Shown one piece after another: positions 2,597 through 34,900 of a DNA stretch of 58,142 nucleotides. Position 1 is the first letter of the stretch. Each line of letters begins with the position of its first letter. The position numbers and the translations under genes are program-made. The notes beneath the pieces are model-generated. The model was not told the DNA's origin, made no database searches, and saw only the letters and a list, made by a program, of their open reading frames with translations. Source of the DNA: Eubacteriales bacterium (GTDB taxonomy: Bacteria > Bacillota > Clostridia > Oscillospirales > Oscillospiraceae); contig JAUNND010000005.1 of the NCBI GenBank assembly GCA_030531595.1, positions 1 to 58,142 on the forward strand, read 5' to 3'.

Positions 2597-2858
2597 CGCC
2601 CGCCTCCATCTGCTTTTCAAGCGTCGCGTATATTTCCGGCGGTATAGCGGCGGAAAAAGCTCTTTCAAATGCTTTTGACTTTATGGCTTTTTTAAGACAG
2701 ACCGGATCGGGGCAGACATAAGCGCCGCGCCCGGGAGCTTTGCCCTTAAAGTCAAGGCTTACGGCGCCCTCCGCAGAGCGGACCACCCTGATAAGCTCCT
2801 TTTTCGGCTTCATCTCACGACAGCCCAGACACTGCCGCATCGGTATTTTCTTTTGCAA
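2589..2858 (-). CDS. ylxR: YlxR (DUF448) nucleic-acid-binding protein
   Basis: An 89-residue member of the YlxR family, a small RNA-binding-type fold found in the nusA-infB operon. The family signatures are present: IPMRQCLGC near the N-terminus, the central APGRGAYVCPDPVC, and a C-terminal helix rich in Lys and Ala. The paired cysteines (CLGC and CPDPVC) look able to bind a metal, as in many clostridial members. The start is TTG at 2858, preceded by AAGGGG eight bases upstream; it produces the usual MxKKIPMR N-terminus. It lies 32 bp after nusA and overlaps ylxQ. Confidence 0.9.
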   Translation of the reverse strand: MQKKIPMRQCLGCREMKPKKELIRVVRSAEGAVSLDFKGKAPGRGAYVCPDPVCLKKAIKSKAFERAFSAAIPPEIYATLEKQMEAGDE

Positions 2859-2890
2859 GGCTGTCGCCCCTTTCCGTTTTTGTTACCGGA

Positions 2891-3943: not shown

Positions 3944-3985
3944 TTTAAAATTCTCCGTTTTCAGTATAGTTGTTTTTTATTTATT

Positions 3986-4441
3986 TTATATGGAAACATG
4001 AAGCTTGACCGCACCGATCTGTGCCTTGGCAAAGCTCATCTCGTTTTCGCCGTACAGAATAGTGACGCCGCCGTTGTCGTAGCCTTTGAGCTCGCCTGTA
4101 AACACCTTGCAGCCGTTCACCGGCTGATATAATCTCACCTCGACCTCGCTGCCCATAAAGGCTTCGAAGTCCGAGGGGCGTTTCAGCTCTCTCTCCGCTC
4201 CGGCGGAGCCTACCTCGAATACATAGCTGTCGGGGATCGGGTCTTCCTCGTCCAGAATGGGATCAAGAGTGCGGCTGATGTTCTCGCAGTCGTTGATGCT
4301 CACGCCGCCTTCCTTGTCGATAAAAACTCTCAGATACCATGTGCCTGCCTCGCGGACATATTCCACATCCCACAGCGTACAGCCGTTTTCCTCAACGACG
4401 GGTCGGGCAAGCTCACTGACCTTATCGGTTATCCTGCTCAT
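3986..4441 (-). CDS. rimP: Ribosome maturation factor RimP
   Basis: Assembly factor for the 30S subunit. The 151-residue product shows the RimP N-terminal alpha/beta domain (VSELARPVVEENGCTLWDVE, with FIDKEGGVSINDCE) and the C-terminal SH3-like barrel (from SAGAERELKRPSDFEAFMG). The frame is open for 12 codons further upstream, but ATG 4441 is preferred because GGAGAAA lies eight bases before it and MSRITDKV is the expected N-terminus. It is the first gene of the rimP-nusA-ylxR-ylxQ-infB operon. Confidence 0.94.
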   Translation of the reverse strand: MSRITDKVSELARPVVEENGCTLWDVEYVREAGTWYLRVFIDKEGGVSINDCENISRTLDPILDEEDPIPDSYVFEVGSAGAERELKRPSDFEAFMGSEVEVRLYQPVNGCKVFTGELKGYDNGGVTILYGENEMSFAKAQIGAVKLHVSI

Positions 4442-4474
4442 ATTGTTTTCTCCGTTTCGATTGAAAAAGCTTCG

Positions 4475-4502
4475 CAAAAAAGAGTGGGCCGCAACCCACT
4501 CT
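4475..4502 (-). terminator. Leader terminator/attenuator ahead of rimP-nusA
   Basis: Read on the minus strand, a perfect 8-bp stem (AGAGTGGG / CCCACTCT, 6-nt loop) is followed immediately by a T-run and lies about 35 bases before the rimP start codon, inside the probable 5' UTR. A terminator positioned before the first gene of the nusA operon fits the known NusA-dependent feedback of Bacillus subtilis. Plus-strand transcription does not use it because no T-run follows there. Confidence 0.8.
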
Positions 4503-4661
4503 GACTAAACCTCATACTTACGGTATTCATAGTACCACTATATCGCCGCTTTTGCAAGTGTTTTTTTATTATTTCAATAATTTCAATAATATTCGGCGGT
4601 TCATGAATGATCAGAATGGTTTTCAGTACAAATTTTCAATATGTATGGCAGCATTTTTCTA

Positions 4662-6082
<1,421 letters not shown>

Positions 6083-6133
6083 TCGGGAGATCGTAAAAGC
6101 CGGACATACAGCGTTTATGTTATGTAAACCAAT

Positions 6134-6161
6134 GTAGGGAACGGTCTTGACCGTTCCCTAC
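6134..6161. repeat. Palindromic hairpin after gdhA
   Basis: A perfect 13-bp inverted repeat with a 2-base centre: GTAGGGAACGGTC, tt, and its complement. No T-run follows on either side, so it is not a classical terminator. It begins with the same GTAGGG hexamer that opens the larger dispersed repeats at 24.6, 53.0, 53.8 and 55.2 kb. Confidence 0.7.
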
Positions 6162-6202
6162 GGTGCGGCATGGGAAAAACAGAGATAATCAGGAGAGAAT
6201 AT

Positions 6203-6604
6203 ATGCTGAAAGACAGAGCAAGAGACTATTTTATTGAAAAAGACTTCAACTGTGCGGAGACTGTTATACGGTGCATCCGCGACGAATACGCGCTTGACAT
6301 CAGCGAGGACGATCTGAAGCTCGTCAGCGGCTTCGGCGGCGGAATGGGCTGCGGTCAGACCTGCGGCGCGCTGTGCGGTCTTATCGCCGCATACGGAAAG
6401 ATGGCGGTAAAGGATCGCGCTCACGCGACAGCCGATTTCGGCAAAAACTGCGGTGCGATATGCGGCGCGTTCAACAGAGCGCTCGGCAGTATGCAGTGTG
6501 CACAGCTTAAAAAGCTTTATTCCTCACAGCAAAACCGCTGTCTCAAAACAGTTGAAATGGCACTCGATGTTTTCGAGGAGTTCATGGCAAAAGAAAACGG
6601 ATAA
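6203..6604 (+). CDS. C_GCAxxG_C_C family redox-type protein
   Basis: A 133-residue protein of the C_GCAxxG_C_C family, small cysteine proteins of unknown biochemical role that are often linked to redox or metal metabolism. The signature is clear: NCAETV near residue 16, the Gly/Cys centre GFGGGMGCGQTCGALCG, and a later NCGAICG. No signal peptide or membrane segment is seen, so it should be cytoplasmic. ATG 6203 has AGGAGA upstream; the open frame continues 11 codons earlier without a ribosome site. It sits downstream of gdhA but beyond a hairpin, and is followed by its own terminator. Confidence 0.85.
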   Translation: MLKDRARDYFIEKDFNCAETVIRCIRDEYALDISEDDLKLVSGFGGGMGCGQTCGALCGLIAAYGKMAVKDRAHATADFGKNCGAICGAFNRALGSMQCAQLKKLYSSQQNRCLKTVEMALDVFEEFMAKENG

Positions 6605-6620
6605 TTCTCGGATAATTTTT

Positions 6621-6655
6621 CAGCCTCCTTCAAAAACGAAGGAGGCTGTATTTTG
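6621..6655 (+). terminator. Rho-independent terminator
   Basis: Perfect 11-bp stem CAGCCTCCTTC / GAAGGAGGCTG with a 6-base AAAAAC loop, followed by TATTTT, 17 bp after the C_GCAxxG_C_C gene. Confidence 0.85.
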
Positions 6656-6694
6656 GCAACCTCTAATAATTCGATGTGTTCAGATTGCGCAGAG

Positions 6695-6775
6695 ATTTTT
6701 TCGGCAGATGAAATAAAAAGCGCAGGGAATACTTTGTGTATTTCCGAGCATTTTTATGAAATATGACGGAAAAAG
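6695..6775. repeat. Short copy of the GGAATACTTTGTGTATTTC repeat
   Basis: An imperfect palindrome of about 80 bp centred on GGAATACTTTGTGTATTTC. The left arm (TTTTTTCGGCAGATGAAATA) is complementary to the right arm (TATGACGGAAAAA side). The same core, with different arms, recurs at 21.7, 43.8 and 52.9 kb. Confidence 0.7.
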
Positions 6776-6817
6776 GTCAAGCAAGATGAGCACAGGAGAA
6801 TTTTTAGAGGTGTCCTT

Positions 6818-7558
6818 TTATATATCCGCATCAAATATGACGGGAGGCTGTTCGCCGGTACGGAGCGTCTCGTAAAAAAGCGTATAGGTCATGTTCAGAT
6901 ACGGAACCGAGAAAAGCTGCACGGCAAGGCCGATGATCGCTATATTCGACATCAGCGCCCAGAGGATGAAGCTCAGATCGAGCACAAAAAGCTCCGTCTT
7001 TCTGCCCTGCATCATGCGCTTGCTCTCCCTGATACACTCCATCGCCGTCATATCGGGGCTGTCTATCATTATGTAAACCGCCATTCGGTATTTGTAGGCG
7101 GCGATAATACCCGGAATGACAAAGAGGCAGCTCCACAGCAGAATAAACAGTCCTTCGAGAATACTGAGCCAGACAAGTCGGAAAAACATCCCGAAGCCGT
7201 CGAGCAGATTGCCCGCGCACGGTGAGGTCTTTCGGACCGTATTGAGGAGGAATATCAGCAGTCCCGCGGAAACGACGGTCATCACGAGCTGAATGGCGGC
7301 GTCAATGATGTAGGACGAGGCGGGCGGCAGAAACTCCCGGCAATATGCCGCCGCATATTCGAAATTGCCCTGTTCGATATAGGTCATTATCTGCGATGCA
7401 TCGCTCTGGGTCATATTGGCTCCCATAACTCCGGCGGACAGTACGCTCATCAGTGCGCTCAGTGCAACGTAGATCGCACATATATTAAAGACCTTCGGGT
7501 TGGAGGAACTTATTACTTCGCGGGCTTTCAGTTTCAGCCCCTGTCTGTTTATCGCCAT
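6818..7558 (-). CDS. DUF975 family integral membrane protein
   Basis: A 246-residue protein with the DUF975 plan: a short cytoplasmic N-terminus (NRQGLKLKAREVI) followed by about six hydrophobic segments, including ICAIYVALSALMSVLSAG and IPGIIAAYKYRMAVYIM. The latter with ECIRESKRMMQGRK is the typical loop of the family. Function is unknown. ATG 7558 was preferred to an upstream TTG because AAGAGG lies seven bases before it. It is 30 bp downstream of the deacetylase gene and probably cotranscribed. Confidence 0.8.
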   Translation of the reverse strand: MAINRQGLKLKAREVISSSNPKVFNICAIYVALSALMSVLSAGVMGANMTQSDASQIMTYIEQGNFEYAAAYCREFLPPASSYIIDAAIQLVMTVVSAGLLIFLLNTVRKTSPCAGNLLDGFGMFFRLVWLSILEGLFILLWSCLFVIPGIIAAYKYRMAVYIMIDSPDMTAMECIRESKRMMQGRKTELFVLDLSFILWALMSNIAIIGLAVQLFSVPYLNMTYTLFYETLRTGEQPPVIFDADI

Positions 7559-7588
7559 ACTCATGCCTCTTTTCAAAAATCATTCATA

Positions 7589-8536
7589 TCAGCCAAGCGC
7601 GTGCACTTCGGGAACGGTCAGATCTATCGCCTCAAAAGTATAACCGTTTTCGCTTCCCCATTCAAGGATTTTCTGCGTTGCTTTCAGACAGGTGCTCCTT
7701 GAATCATGCTGTATCACGATCGGGCATTCCGTCTTTTCCGCAGTTTTGATCACTCGTCTTACGGAGTGCTCGATCCCGTCATCCTTCGGGTCTGCGCTTA
7801 TATCCCAGTCAAAATATCTCATGCCCAGATTATCAAGTATCTCCGTCAGTGTTTCAAAGCCGCCGTCGACCTTGTTCGCCGAATATGCCGCCGCCGTTGA
7901 GCTTCCTCCGGCAAAGCGCAGGATATCCGGTCTGTATCCCGACTTATCAAAAATCAGCTCCCTTGTTTTCAAGACATCCTCGGCAAATCTGTCCTCGGAG
8001 GAATATATATACTCGTAATCATGGCGGTAACAGTGTACGCCTATACTGTGACCGGCGGAAAGGATTCTTTCAAGCTCCTCAGGATATTTCTCGACCTGTT
8101 TTCCGATCAGAAAAAAAGTGGCCTTTGCGTCGTAGGTCGCAAGCAGATCAAGCAGCTCGTCCGTATATTTTCCCGGACCGTCATCATAGGTCAGATATAT
8201 GGTTTTTTCCGCGGCGGCGGTCTCCGGCAGAGTATTTGCGATGACTTTCACCTTTCTTGCGCACGATAACGGCACTTCATCGCTGTCCGTGACCGAATAG
8301 GTGAGCTCATAATCCTCCGGCCGCCAGATGCAGACCTCGCCGGATATCTCGACTCTGTCGCTTATGTCGCTGCCGTCCGTATCAAACGCCAGACAGCCTT
8401 CTTCAACATACCGCTCGCCGCACAGGAGGGTGATCTCCTCATCCCCGCAAAGAGATACGGATGACGCGCCGAATGCCTCTGCGGCGCAGCATACAAGGAG
8501 CGTGATAATCATCAGAAAAGCTGTCCATTGTTTCAT
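7589..8536 (-). CDS. Secreted polysaccharide deacetylase with Ig-like domain
   Basis: Carbohydrate esterase family 4 (NodB fold), expected to remove N-acetyl groups from peptidoglycan or another surface glycan. Signal peptide at residues 1-25 (FLMIITLLVCCAAEAFGA). Residues about 26-100 form a DUF5011-like Ig-type domain (EITLLCGERYVEEGCLAFD). NodB motifs follow: TYDDGPG (motif 1, metal and base Asp), HSIGVHCYRHD (metal His pair) and RFAGGSS (motif 3). ATG 8536 was chosen because the predicted promoter lies between it and the upstream in-frame ATG at 8578, so the longer form would not be transcribed; AAAGGA precedes it. Confidence 0.88.
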   Translation of the reverse strand: MKQWTAFLMIITLLVCCAAEAFGASSVSLCGDEEITLLCGERYVEEGCLAFDTDGSDISDRVEISGEVCIWRPEDYELTYSVTDSDEVPLSCARKVKVIANTLPETAAAEKTIYLTYDDGPGKYTDELLDLLATYDAKATFFLIGKQVEKYPEELERILSAGHSIGVHCYRHDYEYIYSSEDRFAEDVLKTRELIFDKSGYRPDILRFAGGSSTAAAYSANKVDGGFETLTEILDNLGMRYFDWDISADPKDDGIEHSVRRVIKTAEKTECPIVIQHDSRSTCLKATQKILEWGSENGYTFEAIDLTVPEVHALG

Positions 8537-8568
8537 ATCGGATATGTCCTTTACCAATCGTGGCTTAT

Positions 8569-8597
8569 ATTTTACCATTTAATGCACTTCTTGTAAA
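8569..8597 (-). promoter_or_regulatory. Promoter of the deacetylase gene
   Basis: On the minus strand TTTACA (8592-8597), 17-bp spacer, TAAAAT (8569-8574). It places the transcript start near 8562, between the two possible start codons, and so supports the shorter protein. Confidence 0.55.
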
Positions 8598-8624
8598 GGG
8601 CGATCCATCTTCTGAAAAATAATC

Positions 8625-8653
8625 TTGACAAATGAAAGTATAGGTGCTATTAT
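8625..8653 (+). promoter_or_regulatory. Promoter of tRNA-Leu
   Basis: TTGACA (8625-8630), 17-bp spacer, TATTAT (8648-8653), ending 18 bp before the mature tRNA 5' end. Confidence 0.75.
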
Positions 8654-8671
8654 AAGCAAGCCGTCAGAAAT

Positions 8672-8756
8672 GCGCGAGTGGTGGAATTGGCAGACTCGCT
8701 AGATTCAGGTTCTAGTGCTCACTCCGGGCGTGCGGGTTCAAGTCCCGCCTCGCGCA
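8672..8756 (+). tRNA. tRNA-Leu (anticodon CAG)
   Basis: 85-nt class II tRNA. Acceptor GCGCGAG pairs with CTCGCGC at the 3' end, with discriminator A at 8756 as expected for leucine. Anticodon stem CTAGA/TCTAG encloses the loop TTCAGGT with CAG at 8706-8708. There is a long variable arm, and the T arm carries GTTCAAGTC. CCA is not encoded. The 3' 20 bases form part of the attachment site of the element that follows. Confidence 0.96.
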
Positions 8757-8758
8757 CT
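8737..8758 (+). repeat. Attachment site attL (tRNA end)
   Basis: 22 bp covering the T-loop and acceptor 3' side of tRNA-Leu (TTCAAGTCCCGCC...GCGCACT). It is repeated exactly at 15686-15707, which defines the element ends. Confidence 0.92.
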
Positions 8759-8765
8759 GATAACG

Positions 8766-8802
8766 AAATCCATGAGAACGTTAAATTTCTCATGGATTTT
8801 TT
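8766..8802 (+). terminator. Element-supplied terminator after tRNA-Leu
   Basis: 13-bp perfect stem AAATCCATGAGAA / TTCTCATGGATTT, 8-base loop, then a T-run. It begins 9 bp after the tRNA, inside the element, and replaces the terminator that was pushed to 15717. Confidence 0.85.
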
Positions 8803-8870
8803 GTTTTATATGCTGTTTTACGCTCTATTTTGTTCCGATTTCTGATTTTTGGATTTTGCCTTTTTCGCTG

Positions 8871-8910
8871 TTTTCCCTTATGTTTTCCCTTTACAGATTT
8901 ATTTTCCCTT
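8871..8910 (+). promoter_or_regulatory. Candidate integrase arm-type sites, left end
   Basis: Three direct copies of TTTTCCCTT at 8871, 8883 and 8902, just past the integrase stop. Two further copies in the same orientation lie at the other end (15528 and 15540), with the same 12-bp pitch as the first two here. Confidence 0.55.
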
Positions 8911-8911
8911 T

Positions 8912-10105
8912 TCAGGCGGTCACAGTCTTAATAAACTGCTCCATTTTGGACGCACTTTCCGTCCTCATTTTTTCGGTCACATGGGAATAGATATTCAGGG
9001 TTGTAACTGCTGTGGAGTGTCCTAAATTCTCCTGCACCGTCTTGATGCTGTCACCGTTTTCAAGTGATACCGTTGCAAAGGTATGACGCAGATCATGAAA
9101 GCGTGTGTCAGGTAAACCCATCTGTTTTACAATCTTCTTGAAGTGCAGATACACGGTCTGCGCTGATAGATTGCCGCCCAGCTCATTTGTGAAGACAAGG
9201 TTCTTTTCATTGCTCCATAGCTCCTGCGCGGCACACCGTTCCTTAAACTGTTTTCTCTGCTGTTCTTTCAGTACCGACATAACAAACGGTGCAGGGGTGA
9301 TCGTCCGTACTTTCCCGCTCTTTGTGGAAATGAAATTATATTGCCCTGTTCCCGCCCGTTCTTTCTGCAGCTGCTTGTTTACAAAGATCGTGCCGTTCTT
9401 AAAGTCTACACAGTCCCATGTTAGACCGATTACTTCACCCTCTCTCATGCCGGTAAACAGTGTCGTTAGATATACATTCTCATATTTGTGACCTTTGACC
9501 GCTTCAATGAATTTCGCTATATCTTCATCGTCAAGCGGTTTTATTGCTGCCTGTTCGATATGCGGGATTTTACAGGCATCGGCGGGATTATATTTCAGAT
9601 AACCGAGTTCAACAGCCTGTTGAAGTGCCTTGTGGAGAACGCCGTGCAGGTTCTTAATGCTCTTTGGAGATAACGGCTTTTCAGCTTTCCCCGCCTTGTT
9701 ATACATCTTCTGAATATCAACGGCACTGAGGGCTTGAAGCTTGATAGCACCGAGAGCGGGTTTTATGTGGTTCTTCACTGTGGTCTTGTAGCTGTCAACC
9801 GTGCGCGGCTTTACGTCACCGAGAAATTCAGACTGCCATATTTCAAGCCATTCACTGACTGTGAGCTTTGACGGCTCTGAATAAGTATTCTCATTGACGG
9901 CAACGGCGGCGGCTTGCATCTTCTCCCGTACTTCCTTTTGCGTCTTGCCGGTAAAGCTTCTCTGTATCTGCTTCCCTGTGCCGCTGTCGCGTCCCACAGT
10001 CACGCGGGCTTCCCAATATGTGTATTCCTGCCCGTTTCTCATAACCGTCTTTTTGCGAATAGTGCCGGAGCCTTGTGCGCCTCTGGTGCTTTTTTTATTC
10101 GCCAT
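8912..10105 (-). CDS. int: Tyrosine recombinase (element integrase)
   Basis: 397-residue phage-type integrase that catalyses integration and excision at the tRNA-Leu site. Residues about 1-65 form an N-terminal arm-binding domain (GSGTIRKKTVMRNGQEYTYW), residues about 75-165 the SAM-like core-binding domain (SKLTVSEWLEIWQSEFLG), and the rest the catalytic domain. Visible active-site elements are the first Arg in TGMREGEVIGLTW, HDLRHTFAT (His-x-x-Arg), LGHS and the nucleophile in NIYSHVTEKM. The gene lies next to attL and reads toward the tRNA. Its start overlaps the repressor stop by 11 bp, so the two are cotranscribed. Confidence 0.95.
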   Translation of the reverse strand: MANKKSTRGAQGSGTIRKKTVMRNGQEYTYWEARVTVGRDSGTGKQIQRSFTGKTQKEVREKMQAAAVAVNENTYSEPSKLTVSEWLEIWQSEFLGDVKPRTVDSYKTTVKNHIKPALGAIKLQALSAVDIQKMYNKAGKAEKPLSPKSIKNLHGVLHKALQQAVELGYLKYNPADACKIPHIEQAAIKPLDDEDIAKFIEAVKGHKYENVYLTTLFTGMREGEVIGLTWDCVDFKNGTIFVNKQLQKERAGTGQYNFISTKSGKVRTITPAPFVMSVLKEQQRKQFKERCAAQELWSNEKNLVFTNELGGNLSAQTVYLHFKKIVKQMGLPDTRFHDLRHTFATVSLENGDSIKTVQENLGHSTAVTTLNIYSHVTEKMRTESASKMEQFIKTVTA

Positions 10106-10685
10106 TGTCTGACGCTCCTTTCATGTACTTCATCAGTAAAAATTCTGCATAGTGTTTTACTTCGGAAATAATCGCTTTCTCATCATCCGAAAAGATTTCG
10201 CCGATCTCCGAGCCGTCTTTTATAACTTTTATTCGGTGTTTTGGGGGCATTCCGTTGGCTTTTACATCATATTCGAGCATTTCTCCGTTTTCATCTAACT
10301 TTGTGTCCTCTAATTCAAATCCGATATCTGAAAACGAATACCCGTTTTCTTTCAGTATATCGCTTAAAATATGATCTCTCTCATACTCGTCAAAGGCTTT
10401 CTCAAAGGTTTCATCGTAGAATTTTTGCATATCAGAGGTGGTAGGGAAATCATCATATCCAAGCAAATATGCTGCACGATAACCAAACGCTTCCTCTATT
10501 TGTTCTGCTATTCCCATAGAAACAGGCTTTTTCCCTTTCTCAATAGCAGAGATAATCTGCTGCTGATAACCTATCTTTTCGGCAAATTTTTGCTGAGAAA
10601 GTCCTGTTTCTTTTCGTATTTCTTCAACTTTTTTCCCCATTTCTTCAAGCTGGCTTTGACTAAATTTGCTTTTTGGCCGTCCCAT
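10095..10685 (-). CDS. XRE-family repressor (CI-like)
   Basis: 196-residue regulator. The N-terminal HTH_3 domain spans residues about 14-70 (VEEIRKETGLSQQKFAEKIG, then QQQIISAIEKGKKPVS). The acidic C-terminal part has no serine-protease LexA/CI signature and no ImmA partner is nearby, so induction is not the standard RecA-stimulated self-cleavage. GAGGAGAT precedes ATG 10685. It is divergent from the replication genes; the intervening 150 bp hold palindromes and a strong rightward promoter, so it most likely keeps the element quiescent. Confidence 0.85.
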   Translation of the reverse strand: MGRPKSKFSQSQLEEMGKKVEEIRKETGLSQQKFAEKIGYQQQIISAIEKGKKPVSMGIAEQIEEAFGYRAAYLLGYDDFPTTSDMQKFYDETFEKAFDEYERDHILSDILKENGYSFSDIGFELEDTKLDENGEMLEYDVKANGMPPKHRIKVIKDGSEIGEIFSDDEKAIISEVKHYAEFLLMKYMKGASDNGE

Positions 10686-10706
10686 TGTTCAATCTCCTCA
10701 GAATGC

Positions 10707-10780
10707 AACTTTTATTAGAAGTTATTGATGTTGTTTCTTTATGTATTTTGACTTGACTTACTTCTAAAATGCGTTATAAT
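10707..10780 (+). promoter_or_regulatory. Rightward promoter with flanking operator palindromes
   Basis: TTGACT (10753-10758), 16-bp spacer, TATAAT (10775-10780) drive the replication genes. AACTT-N7-AAGTT (10707-10723) lies at the repressor side. TTAGAAGT (10715-10722) recurs inverted as ACTTCTAA at 10760-10767 inside the promoter spacer, as expected for operators of the divergent repressor. Confidence 0.6.
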
Positions 10781-10836
10781 AATAACACAACAACAACCAC
10801 AAACGCAAGCATTATTTTCAAGAGAGGTAAAAAAAC

Positions 10837-11004
10837 ATGACGACTGAACAGAAAGAGTTGGTTAAACAGGCGCGCAATGCGTATCTTCGACAGTGGAGAA
10901 AAAACAATCCTGAGAAGTATGAGGCAATCAAGGAAAGATACTGGCTGAAAAAGGCAGCCCAGTATGAAGGCGAGCGAAAGGAAGGTGAACGAAATGACGG
11001 CTAA
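10837..11004 (+). CDS. Small basic helical element protein
   Basis: 55 residues, highly charged (QARNAYLRQWRKNNPEKYEA). The YLRQWRKNNPEK-type motif recurs in small ORFs of clostridial phages and conjugative elements whose function is unknown. An AGAGAGG ribosome site lies upstream. It is the first gene after the rightward promoter and overlaps the next gene by 11 bp. No membrane segment or signal is present. Confidence 0.65.
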   Translation: MTTEQKELVKQARNAYLRQWRKNNPEKYEAIKERYWLKKAAQYEGERKEGERNDG

Positions 11005-11170
11005 AACTTCCCCGCTGAAGGCGATAAAAGCAAAGTGCCTTGATTGCATGGGCGGTCACAAGAAGGAAGTGAAGCTGTGTCCCTCTGTGGAGTGCCCTTT
11101 GTGGAATTTCCGCAACGGACATAAACCAAAGGTCACAGTTTTCAATCTGGACGCAGAAAACGGCGATTAA
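10994..11170 (+). CDS. Small zinc-ribbon-like element protein
   Basis: 58 residues with KAKCLDCMGGHKKEVKLCPS and VECPLWNFRNGH. The four cysteines (CxxC, then C-x5-C) and the KAIKAKCLDC opening match a small metal-binding family seen in phages and integrative elements near replication genes. Function is unknown. The start ATG 10994 lies within the end of the preceding gene (GAAATGACGG), implying translational coupling; an upstream in-frame ATG would overlap further and has no better ribosome site. Confidence 0.7.
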   Translation: MTAKTSPLKAIKAKCLDCMGGHKKEVKLCPSVECPLWNFRNGHKPKVTVFNLDAENGD

Positions 11171-11198
11171 ACGCACGTTTTCAAACGCATAAACAATA

Positions 11199-11221
11199 GG
11201 GGGGTATAATTTATATCCCCC
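11199..11221. other. G/C-run hairpin between small genes and HTH gene
   Basis: Six G, an AT-rich centre containing TATAAT, then five C form a bulged hairpin in the 109-bp gap before the next gene. It could be an attenuator or an operator-bearing promoter; neither is certain. Confidence 0.4.
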
Positions 11222-11279
11222 AAAACTACTGAGATAATAAAGCTGAAAATATGCCCCCTTTTTTGAGGTATTAGGAGAA

Positions 11280-11477
11280 ATGAATAGTAGAATTGATAGT
11301 ATAGATAAGAAATTAACATATAATATTTCAGAGACAGCAGAGGTTTTAGGAATATCAAGGCCGACAATGTATGAATTGCTCCACCGTGAGGATTTTCCCT
11401 CATTCAGGGTCGGGAAACGTGTTCTCGTTCCGGTGGACGCGTTGAAAAGATGGGTAGAAGAGCAGGTAAGGGGCTAA
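11280..11477 (+). CDS. Helix-turn-helix excisionase-like protein
   Basis: 65 residues forming a MerR/Xis-like HTH_17 domain: YNISETAEVLGISRPTMYEL, then DFPSFRVGKRVLVPVDALKRW, the standard pattern of excisionase-family DNA-binding proteins. Such proteins act as recombination directionality factors or as regulators of replication genes. TAGGAGAA precedes ATG 11280 closely. It ends 5 bp before the replisome organizer start. Confidence 0.8.
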   Translation: MNSRIDSIDKKLTYNISETAEVLGISRPTMYELLHREDFPSFRVGKRVLVPVDALKRWVEEQVRG

Positions 11478-11482
11478 AGATT

Positions 11483-12241
11483 ATGGCAAATATTCAGTGG
11501 GTAAAGTTATCGGTTGATATGTTCGATAATAAGAAAATTAAGCATTTGCGGCGGCTTCCCGACGGTGACAGCATCGTTTTGATATGGGTCATGCTACTGA
11601 CAATGGCGGGACGCTGCAACGCAAACGGATTGATTTTTCTTACCGAAAACATTCCGTATTCTCCGAAAATGCTTGCTGACGAGCTGGGAATTGAGGAAAA
11701 CACAGTAAAACTTGCACTTTCCACTTTCGAGCAGTTAAACATGATTGAACTGAATGACGGTTTTATCATGCTTCCCGGATGGTCAGAACATCAGAATATT
11801 GAGGGTATGGAGAAGATCAGAGAGCAAAACCGATTAAGGAAGCAAAAACAGCGTGAAAACCAAAAGCTTTTATCTGCTTCAAATGGCAGTAACGTGACAG
11901 GTCGCGTGATGTCACGTGACAGTCACGGAACAGATAAAGAAATAGAATTAGAAAAAGATATATACTCTTTTAATGCGGACAAGCCGCAGAAAAAAAGCAA
12001 AACGTTTGTTCCTCCAACATTGGAAGAGGTCACGCAGTACATTTCCGAAAAGAAGCTATCCGTTGACCCTCAGAGCTTTATTGACTACTTCGAGGCGGCA
12101 GACTGGCACGACTCCATAGGTCAGCCGGTACGAAACTGGAAACAGAAGCTTTTGACGTGGAACAAAGGAAGCTTCGGCACAGGGTATAAAGCTCCTGTTC
12201 CTGTTGAGCCGCAAGAGGTAAAGGGTGTTGTGCATTTATAA
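11483..12241 (+). CDS. Phage-type replisome organizer
   Basis: 252 residues. The N-terminal 115 residues match the phage replisome organizer domain (NIQWVKLSVDMFDNKKIKHL and LADELGIEENTVKLALSTF, a winged helix). A charged linker (residues about 118-165) is followed by a DnaD-like C-terminal part with YFEAADWHDSIGQPVRNWKQ, the motif that contacts the helicase or loader. It should bind the element origin and recruit the helicase encoded next. ATG 11483 has AAGGGG upstream. The linker coding DNA holds an origin-like repeat cluster (11893-11928). Confidence 0.85.
   Translation: MANIQWVKLSVDMFDNKKIKHLRRLPDGDSIVLIWVMLLTMAGRCNANGLIFLTENIPYSPKMLADELGIEENTVKLALSTFEQLNMIELNDGFIMLPGWSEHQNIEGMEKIREQNRLRKQKQRENQKLLSASNGSNVTGRVMSRDSHGTDKEIELEKDIYSFNADKPQKKSKTFVPPTLEEVTQYISEKKLSVDPQSFIDYFEAADWHDSIGQPVRNWKQKLLTWNKGSFGTGYKAPVPVEPQEVKGVVHL
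11893..11928 (+). other. Candidate replication origin inside the replisome organizer gene
   Basis: Four GTGAC/GTCAC motifs within 36 bp, including the perfect palindrome TGTCACGTGACA (11910-11921) and a direct repeat CGTGACAG (11893 and 11915, 22 bp apart). An AT-rich stretch follows at about 11935-11980. The position in the linker of an initiator gene recalls lambda ori within O. Confidence 0.5.
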
Positions 12242-12254
12242 GGGGGGGACTTTT

Positions 12255-13511
12255 TTGGAGAATATCTATTCAGCAGAAAATGCGCTTGTTGGTTCGATGC
12301 TCATTGACCCTGCTTGTATTGGTGAAATCGTCCATACTGTCACGGCGGATGATTTTCGGCAGGAGACGACAAGGAATATTTTTTCCACAGTACAAGCGCA
12401 ATATCTCAGCGGTCAAGCACTCGATCCCGTTATAATCGCGGAAAAACTGACGGAGAACGATAAGCAATTCATGGCCGAGTGCATGAGGATGACACCGACC
12501 GCAAACAATTTTGAGGCATATGCCGAGTTGGTAAAGAAGTCCGGGATGCTTCATAAGTTCCAAAAATTGGGGTTACAGCTCGCAGATACGACCGAGATCG
12601 AGCAATCGGAAAAGGTCGTAAGTGAGCTTAACTCTTTGTCTGCGGCAACACCACAAGGGACTTTTCAGACCGCACAGGAAGCGGCAAACTCTTTCATGGA
12701 CAATCTTGTCGAGCGGTTGGAGAATGGGGTAAAGTTCATTCCGTGGGGCTTACATCCGCTGGATGAGTTTATACCTACTCGACTAGGCAACTTCATCATC
12801 ATTGGGGCACGACCGTCAACCGGCAAATCTGCATTGGCTCTGCAATGCGCTCTGAATATGGCAAAGGCGGGTTATCGCGTTGGGTTCGTGTCGCTGGAAA
12901 TGGGAAACGAGGAAATTAACGAACGAATAATCGCCTATTTGTCTGGGGTATCTCTTGAGAAGCTTATACGTGGAAAAAACATATCTGACGAGGAATATAA
13001 GCGCATCAATGCGGCTTGTGAGGCTTTATACAAACTTCCTATTGGCTTTGATTATTCGTGCAGGACTGTGCAGCAGATACAGGCGCGGGCACGTTCTGAG
13101 CGCTGGGATGTGATATTCGTGGACTATATTCAGCTCATGGGCGGAAGCGGTAAAACTCGATATGAGGCAGTAACATCAATATCGCTGGAACTACAACAGT
13201 TTGCACACCGGAACAAAATTCTTACAATTGCCCTGTCACAGTTAAGCAGGCCTCAGACAACTGCTGACGGCAAAGAGCGAAAACCGACTGTAAAAGACCT
13301 TCGGGAAAGTGGACAGCTTGAACAGGATGCAGACGCTATAATTCTTATGTGTTTGGACGATGCTAACGATAAACTATCAGACCGATATGTTAATCTCGAC
13401 AAAAATAGGAATGGTATATGTTGCGATTTTAAGTTAACTTTTTACGGCGATATTCAGCGATTTACATATAAAAGGAGTGATAATTATGAATATAATTCAG
13501 CGTTTCAATAA
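12255..13511 (+). CDS. DnaB-type replicative helicase of the element
   Basis: 418-residue hexameric helicase. The N-terminal DnaB domain (SAENALVGSMLIDP) is followed by the RecA-type ATPase core with Walker A GARPSTGKSALALQ, Walker B DVIFVDYIQLM, the SQLSR sensor and DLRESGQLEQDADAIILM. Slightly shorter than chromosomal DnaB (about 440-470). TTG 12255 is taken as the start because AGGGGGGG lies about seven bases upstream; an ATG at 12225 overlaps the previous gene and lacks a site. With its own organizer and helicase the element could replicate autonomously after excision. Confidence 0.92.
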   Translation: MENIYSAENALVGSMLIDPACIGEIVHTVTADDFRQETTRNIFSTVQAQYLSGQALDPVIIAEKLTENDKQFMAECMRMTPTANNFEAYAELVKKSGMLHKFQKLGLQLADTTEIEQSEKVVSELNSLSAATPQGTFQTAQEAANSFMDNLVERLENGVKFIPWGLHPLDEFIPTRLGNFIIIGARPSTGKSALALQCALNMAKAGYRVGFVSLEMGNEEINERIIAYLSGVSLEKLIRGKNISDEEYKRINAACEALYKLPIGFDYSCRTVQQIQARARSERWDVIFVDYIQLMGGSGKTRYEAVTSISLELQQFAHRNKILTIALSQLSRPQTTADGKERKPTVKDLRESGQLEQDADAIILMCLDDANDKLSDRYVNLDKNRNGICCDFKLTFYGDIQRFTYKRSDNYEYNSAFQ

Positions 13512-13656
13512 TGGGGCTATTCTCTGGAAGATTGGTTATCCGACAGAAGAACAACGTGCCGTAATCCACAAATATAAGCTCATTTTTGTGATGAGGCCGC
13601 AGCGTGGGTGGCTCGGGTATGTCGATGATGCAAGCGATATAGAAAAGCTGGCATGA
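13486..13656 (+). CDS. Small hypothetical element protein
   Basis: 56 residues (IIQRFNNGAILWKIGYPTEE) overlapping the helicase 3' end by 26 bp. A strong AAAGGAGTGA site sits before ATG 13486. No known domain is recognised. It is the last plus-strand gene before a bidirectional terminator. Confidence 0.6.
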   Translation: MNIIQRFNNGAILWKIGYPTEEQRAVIHKYKLIFVMRPQRGWLGYVDDASDIEKLA

Positions 13657-13684
13657 AAAAAAGCAGGGTCTTCGCCCTGCTTTT
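13657..13684. terminator. Bidirectional terminator
   Basis: GCAGGG/CCCTGC stem flanked by an A-run on the left and TTTT on the right, between convergent genes. Confidence 0.8.
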
Positions 13685-13970
13685 ACTTCCTGCGTCCAAA
13701 TATCATTTCTCCTGGCTTTGCCATTACGACATCGCGCAAAAGGAACAATAAGTTATAATTGCTTTCTTTCCCTGCGCTATCATCTGCAAGAGCGGTTGCC
13801 GCTCTGCGGATAACATCAAGACTCCAAAAATCGCCCTGCTCTGTAAGGCGTTTTAAGCTATCTTCGATTTCTGCCCGCTGTGCTCTCTCGGTTCTCCGTG
13901 GCTTTATGCTCTCCTGCCTAAACTCTGAATAACCGCAGATTTCGCCGGTTTTATTGCTTATGCACGTCAT
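13683..13970 (-). CDS. Hypothetical element protein
   Basis: 95-residue soluble protein, charged in the centre (RRTERAQRAEIEDSLKRL). An AAAGGAG site lies upstream of ATG 13970. A single CISNKTGEICGY stretch at the N-terminus has two cysteines. No known family was recognised. It is convergent with the replication genes and in the same direction as the next ORF at 14096-14383, so both may form a separate leftward transcript. Confidence 0.6.
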   Translation of the reverse strand: MTCISNKTGEICGYSEFRQESIKPRRTERAQRAEIEDSLKRLTEQGDFWSLDVIRRAATALADDSAGKESNYNLLFLLRDVVMAKPGEMIFGRRK

Positions 13971-14095
13971 GATTTTTAGCTCCTTTTCTTGATTTATTGG
14001 AGCGGGTCAGTTATAATATTCCTGCCCGCTCCTGCGGTGCATTTCCTGTCTCTTGTCTGTTGCTTTTGGTCGGGTGTTCAGACAAGGGGCTTTTT

Positions 14096-14383
14096 TTATG
14101 CTGTCAATCTGTTCATCGTGAAGCGTGTTCCGGTGCTCTTGATGCTGAAAGCGGCGTAAAGGTCAGCGTGCGCTGCCTTGAAAGCCTTGCTGTCAAAACG
14201 GGTCGTGGTGGTGTTGTGCCACGTTGCACGCCATCCGGTACCGTTTAATTCTTCTGTGGTACTGTCTACCATAACGGTTTTCAGTTCGTCCTTTATCGCT
14301 TCGGCTTCCACTGTCAGAGCGTCGATTTGCTCCATAATGTCAAAATATGCGACTGCTCTTGCGTCAAGTTCGTTTCTGCTCAT
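14096..14383 (-). CDS. Conserved phage-type protein of unknown function
   Basis: 95 residues. The N-terminal half is an acidic helix (VAYFDIMEQIDALTVEAEAI); the C-terminal half has GWRATWHNTTTTRFDSKAFK and ends in GTRFTMNRLTA. This helix plus W-x-x-x-T-T-x-R-F-D arrangement recurs in uncharacterised phage early genes of clostridia. ATG 14383 has GGAGAT seven bases upstream; an earlier in-frame TTG is less likely. A TATAAT on the minus strand (14506-14511) with TAGACG 17 bp away could be its promoter. Confidence 0.65.
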   Translation of the reverse strand: MSRNELDARAVAYFDIMEQIDALTVEAEAIKDELKTVMVDSTTEELNGTGWRATWHNTTTTRFDSKAFKAAHADLYAAFSIKSTGTRFTMNRLTA

Positions 14384-14509
14384 TGGTTTAATCTCCAATC
14401 ATTTATTATTGTTTCGGAAGTCTGTACGGGGTCTGTGTCGTGGTCGTGTACTCCACATCGTTGCCGCCGTTTCCGTCCGCTTTGGGCTTCCTTAACTGTG
14501 ATTACATTA

Positions 14510-14596
14510 TACACAAATTATCTGTGTACGTCTATTCGCAATATGCACAAATTTCATGTGTATATTTTTAGCAGATTGCACACTTGTTTTCTGTGG
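14510..14596. promoter_or_regulatory. Three-site operator array between divergent promoters
   Basis: TACACA-N7-TGTGTA (14510-14528), TGCACA-N7-TGTGTA (14545-14562) and GCACA-N9-TGTGG (14578-14596) have centres 34 bp apart. Site 1 fills the spacer and touches the -10 of the leftward promoter (TAGACG-17-TATAAT). Site 3 straddles the -35 TTGTTT (14584-14589) of the rightward promoter (-10 TATATT 14607-14612). Confidence 0.6.
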
Positions 14597-14663
14597 TTAT
14601 TTATGCTATATTAAATGTATCGTGGGAGAGTTCCCATATATTCAGTAAAGGAGACGTTCTGCA

Positions 14664-14873
14664 ATGCCGATCAGATACAAGATTGATATAATGGCAGCAC
14701 TTAAAGAAAAGGGATATAGCAGTTATAAGCTAAGAAAAGAAAAGCTTCTCGGTGAGTCTACAATGACAGAGATTAGAAAAGGTCAGATTGTTTCCCTTGA
14801 AAATCTTACTCGGTTATGTAGGCTACTGGACTGTCAGCCTGGCGATATATTGGAATATGTGAAAAACGATTAA
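14664..14873 (+). CDS. Small XRE/Cro-type regulator
   Basis: 69-residue stand-alone HTH of the YozG-like group: KIDIMAALKEKGYSSYKLRK, ESTMTEIRKGQIVSLENLTR and the terminal CQPGDILEYV. It is a DNA-binding protein with no second domain. AAAGGAG precedes ATG 14664. The three evenly spaced palindromes directly upstream are probable binding sites, which would make it autoregulated and a second repressor alongside the CI-like protein at 10095-10685. Confidence 0.85.
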   Translation: MPIRYKIDIMAALKEKGYSSYKLRKEKLLGESTMTEIRKGQIVSLENLTRLCRLLDCQPGDILEYVKND

Positions 14874-14891
14874 TGATCGGCTGTTTCGCTG

Positions 14892-14921
14892 TTGACATTA
14901 TCATTGCTGCCGTGCTATATT
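14892..14921 (+). promoter_or_regulatory. Consensus promoter of candidate RNA
   Basis: TTGACA (14892-14897), 18-bp spacer, TATATT (14916-14921), only 19 bp after the XRE stop codon. Confidence 0.65.
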
Positions 14922-14927
14922 GTTTTC

Positions 14928-15024
14928 GGAGAAATTCTCCTCAGCAGTATTCGTCGCTACGTTTTCGGACGTTACACGTGGGGTCTTTGCGGCATCAACG
15001 GACGGCGAAGCTGCTGTTTTTTTT
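14928..15024 (+). ncRNA. Candidate structured small RNA of the element
   Basis: From the predicted start the transcript opens with GGAGAAATTCTCC (a 5-bp hairpin). CAGCAG (14942-14947) and CGTCG (14952-14956) then pair with CGGCG (15003-15007) and CTGCTG (15011-15016), closing a domain that holds an inner ACGT/ACGT hairpin. Eight T follow directly (15017-15024). Promoter, closed fold and terminator tract without a credible ORF suggest a regulatory RNA of about 97 nt. No known RNA family is recognised. Expression is untested. Confidence 0.5.
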
Positions 15025-15047
15025 CTATATACGCCGAAACAATAAAT

Positions 15048-15086
15048 AAGCAAGAGGCACCGTATAACGGAAAGTCTCTTGCTTTT
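15048..15086 (+). terminator. Terminator
   Basis: 9-bp stem AAGCAAGAG / CTCTTGCTT with a 19-base loop, then TTTT. Confidence 0.65.
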
Positions 15087-15244
15087 CTATTTACGTCCTC
15101 GCGCTGGGTGCAATAATCCCCGCCGCGGGTGCTTGCGTCCTCTGATATGCGTCTGATACTTTAGGTTTGAAAGAAGCCCCCGCCAGTATCGGAAAAAATA
15201 CGGGCGGGTCGTAATATATATATATTATAATTTACAGCCGTTCC

Positions 15245-15282
15245 AGACCTACCCCCAAGAAAAACAGGGGGCGGTCTTTTTA
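15245..15282 (+). terminator. Terminator
   Basis: AGACC-TA-CCCCC pairs with GGGGG-CG-GTCT across an A-rich loop, followed by TTTTTA. Confidence 0.75.
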
Positions 15283-15685
15283 ATAGGGTGGTATGTAAAA
15301 ATTATTATAGGATTATTATATGTTATTCACATAGTTAGAGTAGTCTAACTGCAATCAAAAGACACAGTTATCAAAACTTTTATTTAGTGAAAATGGTTTC
15401 GTTTGCTGTTCACACTACGAACTAAATAAATATATTATATATTATGCTATACAGTTTGTGCGATATTATATTCGTCGGCTATATTCTTCGCGTACACATG
15501 GAATAAAATGTAAAAAAACCTTTATTTTTTTCCCTTATTTATTCCCTTTAGAGAAATTACAGTAAAATATTTGAATTTACACCCATTAACATTTCAAGTA
15601 AAAACATATAGTTATCCCATAGAAAAATGCAAATAATTGAATATATTTTACTTGTATTTACATCTTGATTTTTCGCTCCTTTTAA
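15283..15685. other. AT-rich non-coding right end of the element
   Basis: About 400 bp with no credible gene: AT-rich, with the two right-end arm-type sites (15528-15548). The stretch 15087-15244 just before it is also non-coding and holds a CCCGCC/GGGCGGG hairpin at about 15176-15208. Confidence 0.6.
15528..15548 (+). promoter_or_regulatory. Candidate integrase arm-type sites, right end
   Basis: TTTTCCCTT at 15528 and TATTCCCTT at 15540, in the same orientation and with the same 12-bp pitch as at the left end, about 140-160 bp from attR. Confidence 0.5.
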
Positions 15686-15707
15686 TTCAAGTCCCGCCTC
15701 GCGCACT
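15686..15707 (+). repeat. Attachment site attR
   Basis: Exact 22-bp copy of the tRNA-Leu 3' end (same bases as 8737-8758). It is followed within 10 bp by the terminator that originally served the tRNA. Confidence 0.92.
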
Positions 15708-15716
15708 CTCAGAAAG

Positions 15717-15747
15717 AATCCCGCAATCGTTGAGATTGCGGGATTTT
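15717..15747 (+). terminator. Original tRNA-Leu terminator, displaced 7 kb
   Basis: 12-bp perfect stem AATCCCGCAATC / GATTGCGGGATT, 5-base loop, short T-run, 10 bp after attR. It stands where the tRNA terminator would be before insertion of the element. Confidence 0.8.
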
Positions 15748-17196
15748 CGTATAATTAAGCCGCGCCCTGTCCTCCGCCATGTCGTCGCTGAGAGGTATGT
15801 ACGTGTCAACGAGTATCGAGTACGCTATCTCCCTGCACCTGTCATATACCTCCTCCCACGTCATGCCTTCCCCGCTTGCGCCGTTCCCGACAATATAATC
15901 TCCCAGCTCCTGCAGATCGTGCGTGATCTTCTCTCTGTCCGCGCTGCTCTCAAACCTCGTGAGCAGCTCCTTAGCCAGCGCCTTCACGTCCTTCTCGCGC
16001 ACGGTCGCCGCTCTCGTTGTCCTCGTCTGACCCTTCCAGTATTCAACACGCTTTCTTAAAAGCTCGTTCTGCCGCCTCAGTGTGGCATAGCTCGCCTGCC
16101 TCCCCGCCGTCTCATACGCCGTGTCGTCGTCCGTTACGTCCCTGTCCGAGTAGCGGAATTGTTCATACGTTTCTCCGCGCTTCTCCGCCATTCGTTTTCT
16201 CGCCTGTTCCGTTTCAACATATCGTCCCGTGTCACTCTGGAAGCTCTCGTCATATACTCCGTTGCCTATCCATCCGCCGGACTCGATGTCTTCTATGTCA
16301 ATGCGGTTCGCCTTGATGAACTCGATATGAGTATAGCGTCTTCCTGTTTCCGCGTTTTCCGGCAGAGGTATTATGCTTCCGTCTGTCAGTCTGATAGCCG
16401 GTACACCGTCAAGCTGTGATATATCCTCGTTGAGATCAAGCGCAGGATATTTCTTCTGCAAGTCCCCGCTGTCCCTGTCCGAATTTTTCTGCTTGACACT
16501 CCCGCTCTGCTGTGGTATCTTTTCGGTGGCGACCTTATATCCACTTTCCGCATTGTTTAATGCGTGGGATGTATTGGTTGCCTTTTTTTGTCCCCATGCC
16601 ACCTCGTAAGCTTCGCGGCTGTTTTGCCATGCGGTTACAGGTTGGAGTGACTTTCTTCCTCTTGACACCAATTCTACGATGACGATGTTTCCGTTCTCTG
16701 TTTCTTTCCCTATGTATGCCCTGACGCTTCCGTCTTTACGTTTGTGAACATCTAACAGCTCGTCGTAATTGTCTATGTAATACGGTATGTTTTCGATTTG
16801 ATTTACTGTCAGCGGTATGTTCCTTTCATCGGTATCATCTTCAGCGTGGTCTTTCATGTGGGAAATGCGGTTGCTGTCAAGTTCAAGATAGTACCCCGCA
16901 ACATCGACATCCGGTGCTTCTGAAAGAATATCGTCCGCTAAATTTGTACCTATTCTCCCGTATCCTTTAACTTCATTTCTGATTTCTCCGTTTAAAGACT
17001 GATTTATAAAAGATTTGATCTCAACAGGGGAATACAGGAGCGGTGACTTCCCTTTTCTTATCTGCTCTTCCTTTAAGTCCCTGACGTGTTTTCGGTTTCC
17101 TGTTGACAAATATTCCGTCAGATCATCTTCTGTTAAAGGTGTGTTCTCTCTGCTCGACCATCGTGTCCCGCTCTGCTCAGTCTCCGTCCCGCTCGC

Positions 17197-17239
17197 CTCC
17201 CTCACTGAGGGAGGTGTCACGCCTTGCGTGACGGAGGGA
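17197..17239. repeat. Palindromic repeat inside the polyvalent remnant
   Basis: CTCCCTCACTGAGGGAGG followed by GTGTCACG / GCGTGACG and GAGGGAG forms nested hairpins. It reads through in frame as a linker (TPSVTQGVTPPSV). A purine/pyrimidine tract of repeated ACTCCTC-type units follows. Confidence 0.6.
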
Positions 17240-17603
17240 GTGCCGTTTTCACTCCTCACTCCTGACTCCTCACTGTTGAGCGTAGCCTTGACAAGCGCCC
17301 TGTCCCAGATGTCCTGCAGCTCGTCGGCAAACTCTCTCATAGCCACAGCCTCCGCGTGTCTCCTTGCATCCCTGGAGACCGCGGCTTTTATTTTTGCCGC
17401 GAACCTTCCGAGCCACTCGCCTATGCTCCTTGCAAGCTCCGGCTTCTCCTCCGCCATCATTACGGCAAAGCTGCTGTCGTCAAGCATCTCCTCGCAGGCA
17501 TCCGCTACTATCTCTTCAACCGCGTCCTCATAGCTCATGCCCGCAGGGTCTGAGGAGTTGGCGATCTTCCTTCTCGCCAGTGCCGCGATGTCGAAGTCCT
17601 TGC

Positions 17604-34655: not shown

Positions 34656-34900
34656 CCATTTTTGTCACTTTTTTAAGCAAAAAGAAGTAAAAATCCGTGT
34701 AAATAAGCATAAAAAGAGCATAAAATCATATATATATATATATATTGGCGTGTCGGAGCTTTCGGTGCAGCTATATTGTATTAAGGCAACATCGCACGAA
34801 AGATAGTGCAGTGAAGCGAAGAATGTGAAAAATAACTTGCCTATCGAAAATGTTATCCCTTAAACAATGGCACAAAATAAGGTAATATTTGAACATCATA
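34656..34900. other. Intergenic gap with TA tract and solo repeat end
   Basis: No gene seen. It holds a (TA)n run at about 34731-34745 and, at 34785, GGCAACATCGCA, which resembles the left tip of the 160-bp repeat element at 43708. Confidence 0.5.

Follow-up and report, generated by a model that had tools for sequence, protein, structure and literature searches.

How does an integrated element that carries genes for integration and replication travel between cells when no gene for packaging or transfer can be recognised in it? The question is posed by a 6.95-kb element in an Eubacteriales bacterium of the Oscillospiraceae. It lies on contig C69 (JAUNND010000005.1) of a 2.3-Mb, 92% complete genome; the window analysed here is this whole contig of 58,142 bases. 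The element is enclosed by two copies of a 22-bp core, attL (8737-8758) and attR (15686-15707), both read on the forward strand. It encodes an integrase, phage-type regulators, a replisome organiser (the initiator) and a DnaB-family replicative helicase. In its PICI-like layout (phage-inducible chromosomal island, PICI), it is a further member of a known hitch-hiking kind. We read it as an intact, excisable, autonomously replicating hitch-hiker, most likely a minimal phage satellite, with a probability of roughly 0.5.

Element ends and integrase arm sites

The two cores are exact repeats set in a tRNA gene. The integration target, tRNA-Leu(CAG), occupies 8672-8757 on the forward strand (ARAGORN; Rfam tRNA, 47.7 bits), and the core consists of its terminal 21 bases and one further base. 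The window holds no third copy at three or fewer mismatches (0 expected from 100 shuffles). GC content is 42.8% in the element and 50.8% in the remaining window. A preliminary description of this DNA had placed an exact 22-bp tRNA-Leu repeat around some 7 kb, and these boundaries are upheld.

The tyrosine integrase (397 residues; 8912-10105, reverse strand) matches PF00589 (E = 1.5e-28) and PF14659 (2.5e-13). It contains TGMR, HDLRH, LGH and a Y, which we take to be the catalytic motifs. Beside its gene lies an arm-type repeat, TTTTCCCTTATGTTTTCCCTTTA (8871-8893, forward strand), with a third half-site at 8902-8910. A far-side repeat with two mismatches to it lies at 15528-15550, also on the forward strand. 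These two, in the same orientation, are the sole window matches to the 23-mer at three or fewer mismatches, and the pattern occurred in none of 100 window shuffles. Paired repeats inside the cores are the layout to be expected of arm-type sites for lambda- and Tn916-type integrases. The identical 23-mer adjoins sibling integrases on contig C77 of the same genome and in locus L147, and it occurs in L152 about 8 kb away from the integrase. Genome-wide, the pattern was found four times at three or fewer mismatches against three times for a reversed control. The motif by itself is therefore unspecific at that scale, and what gives it weight is its position, together with the tests in the window and in relatives. 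All four genome-wide matches mark element ends, either of the window element or of the one on C77.

We examined the genomic surroundings of 20 of the best 21 integrase relatives outside this genome (G245 C8 was omitted). A tRNA gene with a direct repeat of at least 15 bp (23-31 bp) was found for seven of the 20, and none for the other 13. Arm sites were compared across these seven and the window element, with 60 control stretches of 250 bp per element. The best arm match lies 45-58 bp from the integrase-side core in the relatives and 112 bp from it in the window element. At the far core the distance is 105-136 bp in all eight elements, in the same orientation. Six of the eight have arms with at most four mismatches at both ends, against a control minimum of 6-8 mismatches. 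L162 has 8 (near) and 5 (far) mismatches against a control minimum of 8; L163 has 8 and 8 against 7, which is not above control, and its CCCTT dyads stand at distances like those in the other elements. In L158, the far boundary takes in genes read by eye as transport genes. On these sequence features we describe an integrase arm-site element group, defined by paired CCCTT arms inside both ends and a tRNA 3'-end core. The window element has both.

The element also encodes a small protein of the excisionase/AlpA type, HTH_17 (65 residues; 11280-11477, forward strand; PF12728, 4.9e-14; TIGR01764, 9.2e-12). A relative of the integrase system occurs as a free circle. Contig L231 from IMG/VR, 8134 bp long, closes through a 127-bp terminal repeat into a circle of 8007 bp. 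Its integrase is 57% identical to that of the window element, and its excisionase-type open reading frame (ORF) is 60% identical over 53 residues. L231 also encodes a repressor and a relative (49%) of p100, a small phage-type protein described below. The circle's attP consists of far arms, a tRNA 3' end as core and an integrase-side arm, so that paired arms surround a tRNA end as in the window element. Unlike the window element, L231 has a primase and a weakly VapE-like protein (E = 0.0029) in place of initiator and DnaB, and its core is tRNA-Ser-like, judged by likeness to the core of L151. By ARAGORN, the circle contains no tRNA gene. A second circle, L227 (8822 bp), encodes a distant integrase (26%), the initiator C-terminal domain and a p100 relative (56%). 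These two were the only ones with a terminal repeat among 24 short contigs tested. Neither has a match at E = 1e-3 to a reference set of structural and MobV proteins (from phage phiRgPS_6 and contig C109); since that set is small, the statement that they lack structural genes is provisional. Three further contigs, short linear 'Bacteriophage sp.' scaffolds, have no terminal repeat and were not used; one of them encodes a 52% integrase.

A phage-type replication module with a candidate origin

The initiator (252 residues from ATG; 11483-12241, forward strand) matches PF09681 (Phage_rep_org_N, 4.7e-40). Over its N-terminal 161 residues it shares 65% identity with gp42 of Ruminococcus phage phiRgPS_6. 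Inside the gene, at 11893-11927 (TRF repeat), four hexamers GTCACG/CGTGAC, two of them overlapping, fall within 35 bp and are followed by an AT-rich tract. The hexamer was picked after inspection of this gene, which is thus not independent evidence. At least three hexamers within 70 bp are present in seven of 21 initiator genes, the window's included, and absent in 14; each of the seven clusters was reached by 0 of 2000 codon shuffles. Eight further initiator genes were compared with no shuffles. Four of them, phiRgPS_6 gp42, L286, L287 and L289, have at least four hexamers at that place; L288, L290 and L293 carry TAACGTTAC-type repeats there, by eye, and L291 has a single hexamer. The iterons and the AT-rich tract probably form a replication origin within the initiator gene, with iterons that seem to co-vary.

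The helicase gene follows directly (418 residues from TTG; 12255-13511, forward strand). Its product matches PF03796 (2.6e-52), PF00772 (5.3e-19) and the DnaB structure 2r6a in the PDB (1.1e-36). It carries GARPSTGKS, SLEM, LSQL, DLRESG and VIFVDYIQL, which we read as its catalytic motifs. The nearest full-length relatives are about 30-35% identical; DnaB was for this reason set aside as a handle for finding the family, and scans of two collections with it gave nothing. Relatives of initiator and DnaB are adjacent in three viral contigs (L175, L176 and L177) and at most 1.7 kb apart in L216. Because they neighbour each other there, the pairing is also a phage one.

A second element of this build is found in the same genus. 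L085 is a 6.3-kb integrase-Rep-DnaB element between tRNA-Arg repeats of 46 bp (at 5192 and 11445). It encodes an integrase, a DnaB (31%), a PDDEXK nuclease and an initiator whose C-terminal domain is shared (45% over 55 residues). A small excisionase-like ORF was seen by eye and has no Pfam match. None of the nine L085 ORFs scanned with Pfam is structural or a relaxase. A third copy of the tRNA-Arg repeat (46-47 bp) lies at 3269, and the 1.9-kb stretch at 3269-5237, with a 533-residue ORF, looks like tandem accretion of a cis-mobilizable element (CIME).

The preliminary description had called carriage of its own helicase unusual for a satellite. This holds in so far as no satellite with its own DnaB turned up in a literature search that mostly excluded subscription papers. 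It is weakened by the DnaD and DnaB genes of Staphylococcus epidermidis phages (PMC8125051) and by L085. It is weakened too by related small elements of the same integrase family that carry replication proteins of other kinds, DUF3987 in L153 and D5_N/DUF5906 in L163.

The locus could instead be a stranded prophage that kept integration, immunity and early replication and lost its late genes by internal deletion. The closest initiator relatives come from phiRgPS_6, which has annotated terminase and head genes, and from L287 (with a TerL match) and L286 (with terminase- and portal-like ORFs by eye). In L206, an integrase relative (62%) lies beside phage recombination genes, read by eye, along with relatives of p100 and of another small protein, p68. 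Against this reading, the listed ORFs, both cores and both arms are intact, and compact architectures with no recognised late genes recur in L085, L153 and L163 and in the circles L231 and L227. We hold a deletion derivative to be rather unlikely. From the paired arms, the candidate origin, the circular L231 and the second element L085, the locus is probably an intact element and not a one-off prophage deletion. The satellite reading is further favoured by listed genes that are open, motifs that are present, and att cores and arms that match.

Transfer genes, known systems and possible helpers

Ten element ORFs were scanned against the general libraries Pfam, PHROGs and NCBIfam. No convincing family match to a capsid, portal, terminase, relaxase or type IV secretion system protein was found among them. 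The HTH_17 protein gave two weak terminase-small-subunit lines in PHROGs (E = 0.022 and 0.086), which look like generic helix-turn-helix (HTH) matches. No relaxase family exceeded its cut-off; a weak MobT line of the repressor (13.9 bits against a cut-off of 600) sits on its HTH. A relaxase or packaging gene concealed among the small ORFs was also considered, and none was recognised in these libraries. One further ORF (56 residues, or 59 from 13477; 13477/13486-13656, forward strand, from the ORF list) was scanned with PHROGs and PADLOC only and matched neither. The preliminary description had listed an integrase, two repressors, a replisome organizer, a DnaB-type helicase and small proteins, and no capsid, terminase, portal, relaxase or secretion genes. 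Its inventory stands, with Pfam matches for the main genes and the excisionase-type HTH_17 added, and no terminase, capsid or relaxase homologue, which it had named as refuting it, was recognised among the small ORFs. With no recognised gene for movement between cells, the element probably needs a helper, most likely a phage.

Among known systems, the layout is closest to that of Gram-positive PICIs. PMC6092414 maps these with integrase and repressor leftward, and excisionase and replication genes rightward. The window element shares this arrangement with the type represented by SaPI (Staphylococcus aureus pathogenicity island), together with a specific att site and no recognised structural genes. 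It differs in its size of 6.95 kb, in a phage replisome organiser and DnaB that replace pri/rep, and in having no recognised terS, interference or capsid-remodelling gene. The earlier assignment to a satellite or integrative-plasmid layout, and to the PICI type in particular, is thus borne out for gene order and integrative nature; no PICI-specific gene was found. Packaging-interference genes had been noted as lacking, and none was recognised. This is not anomalous, because terS is present only 'sometimes' in PICIs, others being packaged by virtue of a pac or cos sequence that they carry (PMC6092414), and because phage-inducible chromosomal minimalist islands (PICMIs) have no identifiable packaging genes and are packaged as concatemers (PMC10803314).

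The PICMI account, which concerns Vibrionaceae, describes small elements with integrase, AlpA-type HTH and replication genes and no packaging genes, like the window element, and includes PF12728 among its AlpA models. The window element does not lie beside fis, lacks a DUF3987/DUF5906 primase family, targets tRNA-Leu and has another host; such primases do occur in its same-integrase-family relatives L153 and L163. Satellites of Streptococcus thermophilus span 7-20 kb and carry integrase, regulation and replication genes (PMC13376191). Integrative mobilizable elements (IMEs; Tn6104 and streptococcal) likewise place a phage-type theta initiator on an integrated element (PMC5704250). These carry a relaxase and DnaC, whereas the window element has DnaB and no recognised relaxase.

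Contig C109 holds a candidate helper. Its island of about 14 kb (L283, 1-14595) encodes terminase, portal, peptidase, major head, internal virion and tail-fibre proteins. Eight of ten scanned proteins match PHROGs; one of the eight, scaffold-like by position, falls in a family with no assigned function. By eye, the island has no integrase or replication gene, and in function it complements the window element, with which it shares a genome. CI-like and ImmA-like genes were also seen by eye in C109, and the neighbouring genes are, by eye, those of cobalamin synthesis.

A number of observations count against a PICI-type satellite. No PICI-exclusive gene was recognised, replication relying on PF09681 and DnaB and not on pri/rep, nor was any terS, ppi, interference or capsid-remodelling gene, in the general libraries, none of them dedicated to PICIs. 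Streptococcal satellite prophages share few genes with phages (93% of satellite genes are absent from full-length prophages; PMC6813308); several genes of the window element are phage-like, which argues against a long-separate satellite lineage. Within the integrase family, Rep_OBD is found in L151, and a G2P-type Rep together with FtsK in L162. IMEs with a replisome organiser and DnaC exist (PMC5704250). No near-identical copy of the element was found: a DNA search of a phage collection gave matches that, in the best 5 of 42 records, all lie in the initiator gene; viral scans with initiator, integrase and p100 reached at most 69% identity, and a genome scan with initiators up to 71%. An empty site sought through synteny did not appear, the flank proteins being unmatched at 1e-8 in the 20 fetched relative stretches. 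No packaging site common to the element and C109, the only phage island found, was detected: their longest shared words are 14-15 bp long, with controls at 13-14 bp. In the 92% complete genome, nothing matches the portal families PF04860 and PF05133 or the terminase family PF03354. Finally, the 64% sibling of the integrase sits in a relaxase-bearing element of the same cell. We describe the element as satellite-like and do not file it as a PICI, because no PICI-exclusive gene was recognised and induction and packaging are predicted only.

A second possible helper is the sibling element on C77 (L079, L279), which bears on a conjugative route. It is an 18.2-kb tRNA-Ser element at about 35030-53195 with the same arm sites, an HTH_17 gene, an IstB/DnaC-type loader, the actin-like protein ALP_N and a Mob_Pre (MobV) relaxase. 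Its initiator-like ORF has no Pfam match and shares its C-terminal part with the window initiator. It resembles the window element in integrase, arm 23-mer, HTH_17 and this C-terminal part; it differs in size, target tRNA, loader, ALP_N and relaxase. From its gene order it could pass for a 7-kb twin; the far arm and core near 35030 extend it to about 18.2 kb. Further genes in it are, by eye, of sugar-transport and aldolase type. Because the 64% sibling lies in a MobV element, kinship of the integrases gives no means of telling phage hitch-hiking from the conjugative sort.

Another explanation makes the window element an integrative mobilizable element of iOriT type, which would excise and replicate in the same way and move by conjugation through an unrecognised oriT with a relaxase supplied in trans. 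That relaxase could be the C77 MobV or one on C95, where PF03432 has its one clear match (a sub-threshold one lies on C117), and elements of this kind (iOriT; PMC11389934), as well as IMEs with replisome organiser and DnaC, have been described. The window element itself has no recognised relaxase, and words of at least 13 bp that it shares with the C77 element are confined to arm sites or coding sequence. A scan of its intergenic inverted repeats found none resembling, by eye, the repeat just upstream of the C77 MobV gene. Its initiator, p55, p68 and p100 are also of phage type. We judge this explanation unlikely.

The recognised genes cover integration, regulation and replication only, as they would in an integrative plasmid-like element that excises and replicates, has no helper of its own and spreads for the most part through accidental transduction or transformation. 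One Streptococcus thermophilus satellite did move through natural competence (PMC13376191). The phage-type arrangement of repressor and excisionase suggests regulated induction instead, and we rate spread of this sort distinctly improbable.

Remaining genes, flanking sequence and a proposed cycle

The regulators and small proteins also lean towards phages, and initiator, p55, p68 and p100 all have relatives in phages or viral contigs. A CI-like HTH_3 repressor (196 residues; 10095-10685, reverse strand; HTH_3, 6.2e-12; phrog_8, 2.4e-18) is followed by a promoter-like site, TTGACT-16-TATAAT, directed towards the rightward genes (10753-10780, forward strand). The promoter scan gave 22 sites against 14.2 (sd 3.9) in shuffles, so this one is suggestive only. 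The small phage-type protein p55 (55 residues; 10837-11004, forward strand) matches phrog_14214 (1.5e-10). The Cys-containing p68 (68 residues; 10964-11170, forward strand) has no Pfam family over cut-off and viral-contig relatives in L206 (43%, 53 residues) and L230 (55%, 40 residues). The orphan p95 (95 residues; 13683-13970, reverse strand) has no confident match in Pfam, PHROGs, NCBIfam or PADLOC (phrog_11917 only at E = 0.02), and a viral scan gave nothing; its fold model, at a predicted local distance difference test (pLDDT) score of 52, was not used.

The p100 protein (95 residues, or 100 from TTG at 14398; 14096-14383, reverse strand) matches the last ~90 positions of phrog_434 (8.4e-13). 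Its model has a pLDDT of 90. The best Foldseek hit is an unnamed protein (E = 3e-3), with a COG5377 nuclease at 7.5e-3, and no PDB match is significant. By profile and model, p100 is related to the C-terminal part of YqaJ-type phage nucleases and occurs as a protein by itself. A Cro-like HTH_26 regulator (69 residues; 14664-14873, forward strand; PF13443, 2.9e-15) follows. In a 159-kb viral contig (L226, 9440-10748), two relatives of this regulator (41% and 38%) flank a p100 relative, which suggests that the two travel together in phages.

An AT-rich right-end region with no recognised genes (14874-15527; GC 36.3% over 14874-15685) completes the element. When 14874-15685 is compared with the fetched loci by blastn, each of the best 12 matches falls on the arm site, and tblastx gave none at E = 0.01. 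At the left end, a hairpin with 13-bp arms and a T-run (8765-8800, forward strand) may be a terminator that the element supplies to tRNA-Leu; terminator-like sites number 8 against 7.1 in shuffles, which makes this weak evidence. Just beyond attR, at 15717-15745, lies a perfect 12-bp-stem hairpin with a short T run, not listed by the terminator scan, that may be the native tRNA-Leu terminator moved away by the insertion. A 609-residue ORF with a PBECR3 nuclease domain (15709-17538), its end just outside attR, has no match in the phage collection and is possibly a remnant of an earlier element at the same tRNA-Leu. An integrase relative begins within 300 bp 3' of tRNA-Leu(CAG) in 6 of 16 loci of the genus (L098, L102, L105, L106, L111 and L115), four of the 16 having under 450 bp of 3' sequence, and L108 has another possible integrase there by eye. 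From this survey, the gene looks like an integration hotspot within the genus. Some 50 bp at 17192-17243 resemble stretches of L063, L116, L283 and L287 at 76-80%, which may reflect an interspersed repeat or the matching of simple repeats. Elsewhere in the window are Fic/DOC-family and Panacea-domain antitoxin-like genes (34867-36045 and 40143-41138).

As a satellite, the element would run through the following cycle, of which excision of this copy, induction and origin function are steps that we infer. The CI-like repressor would keep the rightward operon silent until a signal from a helper phage, or another signal, relieved repression. The HTH_17 excisionase and the integrase, acting on the arm sites at both ends, would then recombine the 22-bp cores, freeing a circle and restoring the tRNA-Leu site. 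The replisome organiser would bind the iterons in its own gene, melt the neighbouring AT-rich tract and recruit the element's DnaB. Its own DnaB would make forks independent of host helicase loading, and host primase and polymerase would complete the copying. Helper machinery would package the replicated DNA through a pac/cos-like site, with no satellite packaging genes involved. Phage packaging is the weakest step of this cycle.

A wider reading can be offered tentatively. One Clostridia integrase chassis, with paired CCCTT arms and tRNA 3'-end cores, may serve both satellite-like mini-elements and mobilizable elements with a relaxase; within a single cell, excision machinery that is nearly identical would then feed phage and conjugative hitch-hiking. 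Cargo on such a chassis could be initiator and DnaB, DUF3987, D5 or even scaffold and capsid. L157 holds an 8.4-kb tRNA-Pro element (2231-10673) with a primase/helicase, a split integrase, a scaffold protein (phrog_172, 7.2e-8) and a major head protein (phrog_422, 2e-61) and no terminase seen; by these matches it resembles a capsid-encoding satellite. The window element would then belong to an unnamed satellite lineage with its own replicative helicase and origin, needing only a helper's particle.

Classification is difficult for elements that combine integrase and replication genes and lack transfer genes. In sequence data, both of their ends can be located by arm sites that accompany a tRNA core, and the circular L231 shows that this integrase family has a member in free circular form. 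If packaging by a phage is true, the element would represent an additional satellite lineage with a phage-type initiator/DnaB module. Its MobV sibling in the same genome would then be a test bed in which one integration system serves two transfer routes.

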